From contig NZ_CP104203.1 of assembly GCF_025244725.1 (NCBI RefSeq), positions 2,356,001 through 2,420,000 on the forward strand: a stretch of DNA of 64,000 nt, written 5' to 3'. This stretch comes from Chryseobacterium oranimense. Lineage in GTDB: Bacteria; Bacteroidota; Bacteroidia; Flavobacteriales; Weeksellaceae. Of this stretch, positions 18,733 to 21,410 are shown in pieces. The translations under genes and the position numbers were made by a program. The notes beneath the pieces were generated by a model that did not search any database, was not told where the DNA came from, and saw only the letters and a program-made list of their open reading frames with translations. Position 1 is the first letter of the stretch, and the number at the start of each line of letters is the position of its first letter.

Positions 18733-19980
18733 ATGAAATCATTTGTAGAATATTCTTCAGATTCAGACTTTTCTATACATAATATTCCTTTCGGAGTAGC
18801 CGTTTTTAATAAAGAATATATCGGATGCTGTACAAGGATCGGTGATCAGGTCATTGATCTTGCCACCCTTTACGATCTTGCCTATTTTGAAGATATTGAA
18901 GGATTGAGCGACAATGTTTTTGAAGCCTATACCATCAATGAGTTCATTGAACTGGGAAAACCTGTTACCAATGCAGTCCGCACCAGAATCCAGGAATTGC
19001 TTCAGGAAGGTTCTATCTTGTCAAAAGATGAAAAAACCATTGAGGATGCATTTTATGACCTTGATAAGGTAAAAATGATTATGCCTGTGCACATCCCGAA
19101 CTATACGGATTTTTACAGCAGCATTGAACATGCAACGAACGTTGGAAAAATGTTCCGCGATCCTGCCAATGCCCTGCTACCAAACTGGAAACACCTTCCG
19201 GTAGGTTACCACGGGAGAGCCTCATCCATCGTAGTTTCAGGAACGGAAATTAACCGCCCGAAAGGTCAGACAAAGCCTGCAGATGTGGAAAAACCTGTTT
19301 TCGGACCAAGCAAGCAGCTCGATTTTGAACTTGAAATGGCCTTTATCCTCAACAGAAATACAGAAATGGGCGAAAGCATTTCTACAAAAGATGCTGAAGA
19401 TGCCATATTCGGAATGGTTATTTTCAATGACTGGTCTGCAAGAGACATCCAGTCCTGGGAATATGTTCCACTGGGACCTTTTCTTGCCAAAAACTTCGGT
19501 TCATCCGTTTCTCCATGGGTCGTTACCCTTGAAGCATTGGAACCATTCAGAACAGCTTCTCCAAAACAGGATCCTGAAGTTTTAGATTATTTAAAATTTG
19601 AAGGTGACAAAAACTATGATATCAATCTTGAAGTATATCTGAAGCCGGAAAACGGTGAGGAAAACCTGATTTCAGAAAGTAATTATAAATTTATGTACTG
19701 GAACATGACCCAGCAGCTGGCTCATCATACGGTAAACGGGTGTAATGTAGAGGTTGGCGACCTGTATGCCAGCGGAACCATCTCAGGAAGCGATCCGAAA
19801 TCATTCGGGTCCATGCTTGAGCTTACCTGGAGAGGACAAAACCCTTTACAGCTAAGCAATGGCCAGGAAAGAAAATTCATTGAGGATAACGATACGGTTA
19901 CCATGAAAGCCTGGGCAGAAAAAGATGGCGTGAGAGTTGGTTTTGGTGAAGTTTCAGGGAAAATTATTCCAGCAGTTTAA
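18733..19980 (+). CDS. fahA: Fumarylacetoacetase
   Basis: 415 aa. It hydrolyses fumarylacetoacetate to fumarate and acetoacetate, the last step of tyrosine catabolism. The N-terminal SH3-like domain begins with IPFGVAVFN. The catalytic domain shows YTDFYSSIEHATNVGKMFR, with the catalytic His and metal-binding Asp, and DWSARDIQSWEYVPLGPFL, with further metal-site residues. Length matches bacterial FAH. No maleylacetoacetate isomerase gene is seen nearby. Directly downstream lies an inverted-repeat-bounded element that separates it from the flavin reductase-like gene. Confidence 0.96.
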   Translation: MKSFVEYSSDSDFSIHNIPFGVAVFNKEYIGCCTRIGDQVIDLATLYDLAYFEDIEGLSDNVFEAYTINEFIELGKPVTNAVRTRIQELLQEGSILSKDEKTIEDAFYDLDKVKMIMPVHIPNYTDFYSSIEHATNVGKMFRDPANALLPNWKHLPVGYHGRASSIVVSGTEINRPKGQTKPADVEKPVFGPSKQLDFELEMAFILNRNTEMGESISTKDAEDAIFGMVIFNDWSARDIQSWEYVPLGPFLAKNFGSSVSPWVVTLEALEPFRTASPKQDPEVLDYLKFEGDKNYDINLEVYLKPENGEENLISESNYKFMYWNMTQQLAHHTVNGCNVEVGDLYASGTISGSDPKSFGSMLELTWRGQNPLQLSNGQERKFIEDNDTVTMKAWAEKDGVRVGFGEVSGKIIPAV

Positions 19981-19992
19981 TATATAATAAAA

Positions 19993-20577
19993 TTAAACAC
20001 TTAAGTTTATTAAGTCAAATGATAATGGAAATTTAAGTTCACTTTAGTTTTTGAAAATCTACGATTTTCATAATGTTTCTTTACACATGGTTACACAAAA
20101 ATTGATTAACGAACTTTCTTATAAAATTGTTGGAGCTTGTATAGAGGTTCATAAACTGGCCGGTCCAGGTTTATATGAAGGAGTGTATCATCAATGTTTA
20201 GAAAAAGAATTCAATCTTTTAGGTTTAAAATACCAAAGTGAACTTGAAATTCCTTTTATCTATAAAGGCCAGCATATAGATTGTAAGTTAAAATGTGATT
20301 TTTTGATTGAAGATTTAATTGTTTTAGAATTAAAGTCTGTTTCTGAAATTCACCAGATTCATAAAGCTCAAACAATGAATTATATGAATCTCCTAAAGAT
20401 ACCACGCTCAATATTGGTAAATTTTAACGTAACCAACCTATATCATGAAGGTTGTGATTTTTTTGCTGCTAAATCTTTTAAAGATCTTCCACAAGAATGA
20501 AAATCAGAGATTTTCAAAAAACTAAAGTGTTCTTATAAAACGCATGCAGAGAAACTAAAGCTAACTTAAGTGTTAAA
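19993..20577 (+). mobile_element. Inverted-repeat-bounded element carrying a GxxExxY gene
   Basis: About 585 bp inserted between fahA and the flavin reductase-like gene. The outer ends are 15-nt inverted repeats with one mismatch (19993-20007 and 20563-20577; 12 nt perfect, AACACTTAAGTT). The inner ends are near-perfect 32/33-nt inverted repeats (20040-20071 and 20497-20529). Each contains a small palindrome, TGAAAATC-N3-GATTTTCA (20052-20070 and 20498-20516). The sequence TTAA lies at both outer edges (19993-19996 and 20573-20576) and could be a target duplication. The only gene inside is the GxxExxY protein; its stop codon is part of the right inner repeat. No transposase is present, so movement would need a trans-acting enzyme. 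Confidence 0.6.
20087..20500 (+). CDS. GxxExxY family protein, PD-(D/E)XK nuclease fold
   Basis: 137 aa from the ATG at 20087; the in-frame TTG at 20051 lies inside the left inner repeat and is rejected. The family hallmark is G28-x2-E31-x2-Y34 (GLYEGVY). A PD-(D/E)XK-like core follows: D71 in KCDFLIED and E81-x-K83 in VLELKSV, with a later HKAQTMNYM segment. Family members are common in Bacteroidota and have no firmly established function; a nuclease fold is recognised. Here the gene fills an element with terminal and subterminal inverted repeats and has no operon partner, suggesting a mobile cassette inside the tyrosine locus. Confidence 0.88.
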   Translation: MVTQKLINELSYKIVGACIEVHKLAGPGLYEGVYHQCLEKEFNLLGLKYQSELEIPFIYKGQHIDCKLKCDFLIEDLIVLELKSVSEIHQIHKAQTMNYMNLLKIPRSILVNFNVTNLYHEGCDFFAAKSFKDLPQE

Positions 20578-20585
20578 CAAAAATA

Positions 20586-21410
20586 ATGAAAACAGTAATC
20601 CCCTCCGAATTATCTCCCGTACAGCTTCAAACCATTATGCAGACCGCTGTGTCTCCACGGCCAATTGCTTTAGCTTCTACAGTTGATAAAAACGGAACCA
20701 TCAATTTATCTCCTTTCAGCTTTTTTAATATGTTCAGCACCGTTCCTCCGATTTTGATTTTTTCGCCATCGAGAAGAGTGCGTGACAATACCACAAAACA
20801 TACTCTGGAAAATGTACTGGAAGTTCCTGAAGTAGTAATAGGAACTGTAAATTTTCCGATTGTACAGCAGATTTCTTTAGCTTCCACAGAATATGAAACC
20901 GGAGTGAATGAGTTTATTAAGTCCGGCTTAACGATGAGAGAGGCAGATCTGGTACAGCCCAAACTGATTGAAGAATGCCCTGTAAACTTTGAATGTAAAG
21001 TTTTAGAGGTAAAATCATTAGGCGATCAGGGTGGTGCAGGAAATCTTGTGATCTGTGAAGTGCAGAAAATCCATATCAGGGAAGAATACCTGAACGAAGC
21101 AGGGAATTTGGATCAACAGAAGCTGGATATGGTAGCCCGTTTGGGAAGCAACTGGTATTCCAGAAGCAATGAGAACAGTCTTTTTGAAGTTCCGAAGCCA
21201 TTGGTAACGAAAGGAATCGGGTTTGACCTTCTGCCGGATTCTATCAAATACAGCAAAATATTTACAGGAAACGACCTGGGAATGCTTGCCAATGTAGAAA
21301 TTCTTCCTCCGGGAGATTTTCATGCAGATGAAAACGTTCATCTGGATGCACAGAAATTACTGCTGGAAAGCAGAATTGAAGAAGCCTGGGCACTTTTAAC
21401 AATACAATAA
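20586..21410 (+). CDS. Flavin reductase-like domain protein
   Basis: 274 aa, with an FMN-binding split-barrel of the flavin reductase class in the N-terminal 200 residues: MQTAVSPRPIALASTVDKNG, then NLSPFSFFNMFSTVPPILIFSP. It typically binds FMN. A role in tyrosine catabolism is suggested because the gene follows fahA, interrupted only by the small element at 19993-20577, but no defined step needs it. The stop is followed by a bidirectional terminator. Confidence 0.85.
   Translation: MKTVIPSELSPVQLQTIMQTAVSPRPIALASTVDKNGTINLSPFSFFNMFSTVPPILIFSPSRRVRDNTTKHTLENVLEVPEVVIGTVNFPIVQQISLASTEYETGVNEFIKSGLTMREADLVQPKLIEECPVNFECKVLEVKSLGDQGGAGNLVICEVQKIHIREEYLNEAGNLDQQKLDMVARLGSNWYSRSNENSLFEVPKPLVTKGIGFDLLPDSIKYSKIFTGNDLGMLANVEILPPGDFHADENVHLDAQKLLLESRIEEAWALLTIQ

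Follow-up and report, generated by a model that had tools for sequence, protein, structure and literature searches.

The locus between fahA and a flavin-reductase-like gene in the 4.37-Mb single-contig genome of Chryseobacterium oranimense raises the question of whether a small gene of the GxxExxY family and the inverted repeats around it form one mobile unit. It was examined within a window of 64,000 nucleotides, i.e. the whole stretch of DNA that was analysed. The original prediction was of a small mobile cassette without a transposase, encoding only this protein and its ends. Taken together, the anatomy of the locus and the recurrence of the same layout around most GxxExxY genes tested suggest a mobile unit of gene plus repeats that is widespread and has not been described before.

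Anatomy of the element

The coordinates of the element and its neighbours are listed in Table 1. The gene lies between fahA and the flavin-reductase-like gene and within two nested sets of inverted repeats, both as predicted. The whole arms extend over 19993-20071 on the left and 20497-20577 on the right, with a hairpin TGAAAATC-N3-GATTTTCA at each inner edge, and their tandem unit of 8-9 nt is CACTTAAG. The outer arms match at 14 of 15 nt, in agreement with the single mismatch claimed for them, and TTAAACACTTAAGTT was also found at the edges of the dispersed gene-less copies described below. For the inner repeats a near-perfect match of 32/33 nt had been claimed; the inverted pair is real, and it measures 38-39 nt with a few mismatches and one gap. 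Its score was higher than that of any of 2000 equally spaced pairs from the rest of the window, and chance is therefore excluded.

Table 1. Features of the element and of the adjacent genes in the window.
Feature	Position	Strand	Evidence or remark
Fumarylacetoacetase gene fahA, left neighbour	18733-19980	+	TIGR01266, 555.7 bits
Left outer arm, TTAAACACTTAAGTT	19993-20007	+	93% complementary to 20563-20577
Left inner arm, TAAGTTCACTTTAGTTTTTGAAAATC..., hairpin at its end	20034-20071	+	Score 50 vs null maximum 26
Left hairpin, TGAAAATC-TAC-GATTTTCA, in full TGAAAATCTACGATTTTCA	20052-20070	+	Sequence; ssDNA folding; conserved in solos
GxxExxY protein, 137 aa, PDDEXK_3; D71, E81, K83, Q95xxxY99	20087-20500	+	
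Right inner arm	20497-20535	-	
Right hairpin, TGAAAATC-AGA-GATTTTCA, in full TGAAAATCAGAGATTTTCA	20498-20516	+	First three bases are the stop codon
Right outer arm, AACTTAAGTGTTAAA	20563-20577	-	
Flavin-reductase-like gene, right neighbour	20586-21410	+	PF01613

The stop codon (TGA, 20498-20500) lies inside the right inner repeat, as had been noticed from the sequence, and it overlaps the right hairpin in the same manner in most type A relatives. A TTG-started open reading frame from mechanical calling begins within the hairpin; the conserved start is the ATG at 20087, from which the residues of the protein are numbered. At two other loci (L316 and L328), upstream start-codon calls translate the repeat arm, e.g. 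as EPQRAQR, and wrongly annotated N-termini may therefore be common in the GxxExxY family.

Both outer edges carry TTAA, as stated in the original prediction. It belongs to the arms (TTTAACAC...) and was for this reason rejected as a target duplication; empty sites show no duplication of it. In ssDNA folding, the arm hairpins were moderately stronger than shuffled sequences (z -1.2 to -2.8). An Rfam scan of the repeats gave no match, and a known structured RNA is thus not indicated.

A gene with inverted copies of a dispersed palindromic repeat on both sides corresponds to the layout of REPIN-RAYT systems; terminal inverted repeats together with gene-less copies correspond to that of insertion sequences and MITEs. 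Neither a DDE nor a HUH transposase is encoded in the element, in which PDDEXK_3 was the sole domain found, and the description as transposase-less was correct.

The GxxExxY protein

Comparison with TIGR04256 gave an E-value of 2e-36 and 124.9 bits against a curated cut-off of 35, and comparison with PDDEXK_3 an E-value of 4.8e-35. By score, the gene is a full member of the GxxExxY family (TIGR04256 / PF13366), the models of which cover the protein only. The proposed PD-(D/E)XK core was borne out by an alignment of 38 sequences, in which D71, E81, K83 and Y99 were invariant and Q95 nearly so. The QxxxY motif marks Cas4/lambda-exonuclease-type nucleases, and the combination of a D...E-x-K core with this motif assigns the protein to the PD-(D/E)XK nucleases of that type.

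Structure prediction with AlphaFold2 resulted in a model with a pLDDT of 96.6. Foldseek listed SSO0001, which we take to be a Cas4 protein, first (E 5.6e-3, prob 1.00) and lambda exonuclease next, a moderate similarity with an E-value above 0.001; VIA-align also ranked SSO0001 first (Z 9.3). These middling fold scores are consistent with the D71, E81-x-K83 and Q95xxxY99 motifs and with hits to HMMs of the Cas4 family; the model is thus that of a nuclease of the Cas4/lambda-exonuclease type. It resembles Cas4, lambda exonuclease and RecB-type nucleases in predicted fold and in the D...ExK and QxxxY motifs. It differs from Cas4 in its length of only 137 aa and in lacking the four conserved Fe-S cysteines, no invariant cysteine being present in alignments A1 and A2, and it was not classified as Cas4. 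A sequence search of the PDB revealed no solved relative. No relative was found in a scan of viral_contigs either, and phage carriage thus gains no support.

The dN/dS ratio was 0.075 in lineage A, which includes the gene of the window, and 0.045 in lineage B. Ratios of this size indicate strong purifying selection on the gene and hence that the protein is maintained.

Arms around other GxxExxY genes

Arms were searched for at 80 named Bacteroidota loci, 79 of which were testable, and each locus was compared with about 50 nulls from the same locus. Arms above every null were present at 69 of the 79 loci, and clear arms were missing at 10. Among 28 further loci, which came from other genera in a phylum-wide sample with one locus per genome, 18 had arms beyond the nulls. 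The expectation that repeats also surround other GxxExxY genes was thereby confirmed for most loci tested. The shared plan consists of tandem 8-9-nt units, usually of the CACAnAG type, arranged head to head around the gene; the units seen were CACAAAAG, CACAGAG, CGCAGATT, CACATAG, CGCAGAG, CATATAAG and CACTTAAG.

The arms differ at the two other intact GxxExxY copies of the same genome: they are CTCGCAGATTGCGCAGATT at one (82% over 38 nt) and TTCCCACAGATTTTTCAGATAACGCAGATT at the other (79% over 38 nt). A frameshifted GxxExxY pseudogene of this genome (L033, G000 C1:1941038) is without clear arms. The arm plan was also found with plasmid-borne copies in Gemmatirosa (Gemmatimonadota), Bernardetia, Sphingomonas (fabD/fabG) and Bacteroides, in the last case between radA and its neighbouring gene. 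On the Sphingomonas plasmid NZ_CP155749.1 (L188), the gene and its CGCGAAG-type arms lie within the fatty-acid operon, where they directly follow the stop codon of fabD and precede fabG. GxxExxY loci of Treponema and Fusobacteria had weak short repeats only, and the Persicobacter locus had no arm repeats.

At the site of the first of the two other intact genes (L216-L223), relatives have the gene, a gene-less copy only, a decayed gene-less copy or no repeat. At the second site, some relatives carry the gene, and in others its place is taken by a different gene or a different palindrome or is empty. There, in L224-L235, the end motif AATCTGTGGGAA at the start of the downstream gene persists even where the unit is absent; this motif may be a relic, or it may resemble a target sequence. 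In L319 (444-809), CACAGAG-type repeats surround a nuclease-like gene of the DUF559 family (PF04480), and other gene families may share repeats of this type.

Gene-less copies

When the element was compared by BLASTN with the genome that carries it, dozens of short matches were obtained, which comprised end units only; a second copy of the window's GxxExxY gene was not found in this search. The gene-less copies (solos) are about 145-215 nt long, are scattered between genes, and consist of a right-type unit, one hairpin and a left-type unit, often with an extra outer pair ACCACAAAAGTCACAAAAG. A solo sequence model gave at least 25 matches in this genome and matches in 106 of 114 genomes of the genus; counts saturate near 26 per genome, and high counts are lower bounds. 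In the gene-bearing form, the left and right hairpins also constitute a pair of direct repeats, and a solo would result if simple slippage occurred between them. Collapse of the gene-bearing form to a unit without an open reading frame was observed at the fahA/flavin reductase junction in L068 and L093.

Six solos were compared with the corresponding sites of relatives. The site of L026 was without the solo in two relatives (L268, L269); other solos were represented by end remnants or by internal deletions through the hairpin core. Solo sites are heavily decayed, and no clear target duplication was seen at the sites compared, the boundaries of which are blurred by decay. Head-to-tail tandems of at least four solos or array units with regular spacing were found at G047 C17:182015-183040, G084 C1:1965611-1966376 and L322.

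The fahA/flavin reductase junction in the genus

The junction was located in 117 of 118 genomes of the genus via the flavin-reductase-like gene, and its contents were read in 70. Lineage A, that of the window, has CACTTWAG arms and hairpins. Lineage B, mostly with 53-61% protein identity, has ACCACAAAAG arms and no hairpins. Also found at this place are a type intermediate between the two, gene-less collapses, the palindrome families ATGCTTCGACTCCGCTCAGCATGACA and ACCTCATAGGTTT, and a near-empty allele of 32 nt (L088). The ATGCTTCGACTCCGCTCAGCATGACA palindrome is present at the junction in many relatives (L035, L054 and others) and also at the site of the second other GxxExxY gene (L224-L226); no gene belonging to it was identified.

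Defined by an E-value of at most 1e-38, the lineage group comprises 67 copies in 116 genomes; 56 of these copies lie beside the flavin reductase gene, counted by position. On a host tree built from fahA plus the flavin reductase gene, gene presence was patchy, with 30 changes on 70 rows; lineage A required 12 changes for 12 rows and lineage B 17 for 23, hardly fewer than with shuffled labels. Divergence within each lineage nevertheless follows host divergence, with Mantel values of 0.63 and 0.74 and a ratio of about 1.1. Among 22 B-type elements, the pairs G068/G047, G054/G006 and G037/G020 carry elements about four times more alike than the host genes and are candidates for recent exchange. 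Patchy presence combined with host-tracking divergence identifies the junction as an old site, at which units are lost, replaced and occasionally exchanged, and not as the site of a fresh insertion.

The prediction of a mobile cassette is thus upheld in part. Repeats around most GxxExxY genes, dispersed gene-less derivatives with the same ends, and collapsed or near-empty sites agree with it; a recent insertion at fahA is not supported, given the position of most lineage copies at this same junction and a divergence close to that of host genes. Comparison of the junction between relatives had been proposed for the detection of empty sites and duplicated TTAA. Near-empty and collapsed alleles were obtained, and a TTAA target duplication was not. 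Neither of the two outcomes named in advance as refuting was observed: other GxxExxY genes do have repeats around them, and the gene itself is missing from the site in some relatives.

Association of genes and repeats

The array pattern AACCACADAGN{1,2}CACADAG was searched in 198 Bacteroidota genomes, 101 of which contain GxxExxY. The pattern was present in 38 genomes, and 36 of these contain the gene (Fisher p 2e-10); by genus, the association was 22/23 versus 38/79 (p 2e-5). A control with the reversed pattern gave one site. Some array matches directly adjoin GxxExxY (G170 C12, G215 C10 and G278 C12), and others form close head-to-head solos. Arm similarity tracks protein similarity in pairs from different sites (Mantel r 0.635, p 0.001), a correlation to which repeats shared among related species may contribute; a stricter within-genome control of arm specificity gave 10:6, without significance.

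Within the genus, the median number of solos was 16.5 in genomes with the gene lineage and 6.5 in those without, at counts that saturate near 26. Raw counts of genomes with three or fewer solos were 3 with the gene and 22 without (p 3e-6). Co-occurrence of gene and solos was weak in nearest-neighbour pairs (18:7, p 0.04), and a tree-based test with independent pairs gave no significance (median p 0.73), again with counts saturating near 26. Solo counts above 20 persist in several genomes that lack the gene.

Two Y1/HUH (RAYT-like) genes are present in the genome of the window (L332 and L333; G000 C1:234191 and C1:1447187), each between its own palindromes (GGGCTTTAGCCC; GAGCTCCGTAGGAGCGA), which are unrelated to the GxxExxY arms. 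GxxExxY-type motifs were found in none of ten Y1/HUH loci from five genomes, and the flanks of RAYT-like genes hold GGGCTTTAGCCC, GAGCTCCGTAGGAGCGA and GTCCCAACGGGAC. Movement of the GxxExxY-type repeats by RAYT-like genes of the host is disfavoured by these other palindromes. The RAYT-like genes serve as an internal comparison: two partnerships of gene and repeat coexist in one genome, and they do not share their repeats.

Interpretation and alternatives

REPIN-RAYT systems consist of a small resident gene between inverted palindromic repeats and of gene-less dispersed repeats, usually with few gene copies per genome (PMC8049555). The GxxExxY unit shares the small gene between inverted repeats, the dispersed gene-less copies and the usually low number of genes per genome. 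It differs in its enzyme, a PD-(D/E)XK and not a HUH/Y1 protein, in its arms of tandem 8-9-nt units, and in a gene that is patchy and exchanged at one site. Since no HUH/Y1 (Y1_Tnp) protein was found between the GxxExxY repeats, and Y1_Tnp genes elsewhere are accompanied by other palindromes, the unit was not filed as a member of the REPIN-RAYT class.

Head-to-head arms, dispersed gene-less copies and a conserved small nuclease fit a gene-repeat partnership, and we give even chances to the reading that the gene and its inverted arms are one unit, which resembles REPIN-RAYT in the way it works but depends on an unrelated nuclease. On this reading, the protein would bind and cut the arms and drive the spread of the repeats. 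The small Cas4/lambda-exonuclease-type nuclease would most likely recognise arms that are extruded or single-stranded as hairpins, and would cut or resect them. Repair would then copy or exchange the repeats; this would spread solos in trans, and at resident sites, of which the fahA/flavin reductase junction is an example, one allele of the unit could supplant another. The main weakness of this reading lies in the co-occurrence of gene and solos within the genus, which was not significant in the tree-based comparison; the 10 of 79 loci without clear arms and the lack of visible target duplications also count against it.

Alternatively, another system may move or maintain the repeats, and GxxExxY may be an often captured cargo, e.g. 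a defence nuclease like some Rpn proteins. The persistence of solos in genomes without the window's gene lineage, the DUF559 nuclease-like gene in L319, which indicates that other genes may be neighbours of such repeats, and the other kinds of palindrome at the same junction point in this direction. Nevertheless, at most loci the gene is closely bracketed by arms that vary together with the protein, different palindromes accompany the HUH enzymes of these genomes, and PADLOC showed no defence-system partner for the gene and weak Cas4 similarity only; we regard this alternative as unlikely, though as the most probable of the rivals. Abstracts on the Rpn (YhgA-like) recombination-promoting nucleases link that family with the mobilisation of DNA and, of late, with defence against phages, and do not include repeat arms in its description (PMC5350276, PMC10327210). 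In Pfam it is a different family (PF04754).

Homing of the nuclease gene would mean that the nuclease cuts unit-less alleles at a preferred intergenic site, that the unit is copied in by repair between the flanking genes, and that solos are mostly decayed ends. Homing endonuclease genes are likewise nuclease-only elements with rapid turnover at one site, and the concentration of 56 of 67 lineage-group copies at one junction, the frequent changes on the host tree (A 12/12, B 17/23), the three species pairs with elements about four times more alike than host genes and the near-empty allele L088 would suit such a process. However, homing endonuclease genes are unlike the present unit with its dispersed gene-less repeats and head-to-head arms. 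Solos at many unrelated sites would be left unexplained by homing to one site, and element divergence otherwise tracks the host, so that transfers look rare. This explanation is considered rather improbable.

Still less probable is an ordinary small transposon with GxxExxY as transposase, the arms as terminal inverted repeats and the solos as MITEs. The unit shares terminal inverted repeats and short gene-less derivatives with MITEs and insertion sequences, and one solo-less site was found in two relatives; yet it has no recognised transposase fold or family, no target duplication was seen at the sites compared, where decay blurs the boundaries, and within the genus the complete unit is found almost exclusively at one site, in contrast to the numerous solos. 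That AT-rich intergenic palindromes (terminators, decaying repeats) merely happen to surround a resident gene, as the only moderate hairpin folding and heavily decayed sites might suggest, is very improbable in view of the same architecture at most of 107 loci measured against same-locus nulls, of its occurrence in several phyla, and of the association between array and gene (p 2e-10).

Extended beyond this locus, the gene-repeat reading is more tentative, and we lean somewhat against it: GxxExxY with tandem-unit arms may be a widespread mobile gene-repeat class that is driven by a minimal nuclease resembling Cas4 and does not depend on DDE, HUH, tyrosine or serine enzymes, and the AACCACAGAG-type dispersed intergenic repeats of many bacteria may be its gene-less progeny. 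A literature search, subscription papers and outside preprints aside, revealed no description of repeats around GxxExxY genes and no mention of TIGR04256; the name GxxExxY itself turned up in just two papers, in one of them in an incidental passage.

GxxExxY occurs in half of the sampled Bacteroidota genomes and in other phyla, and is a family without known function. A link to a definite class of dispersed repeats would give it a testable role and would suggest where common intergenic arrays, those of ACCACAGAGGACACAGAG and its relatives, come from. If true, it would mean that REP-like gene-repeat partnerships have arisen with an enzyme unrelated to RAYT.
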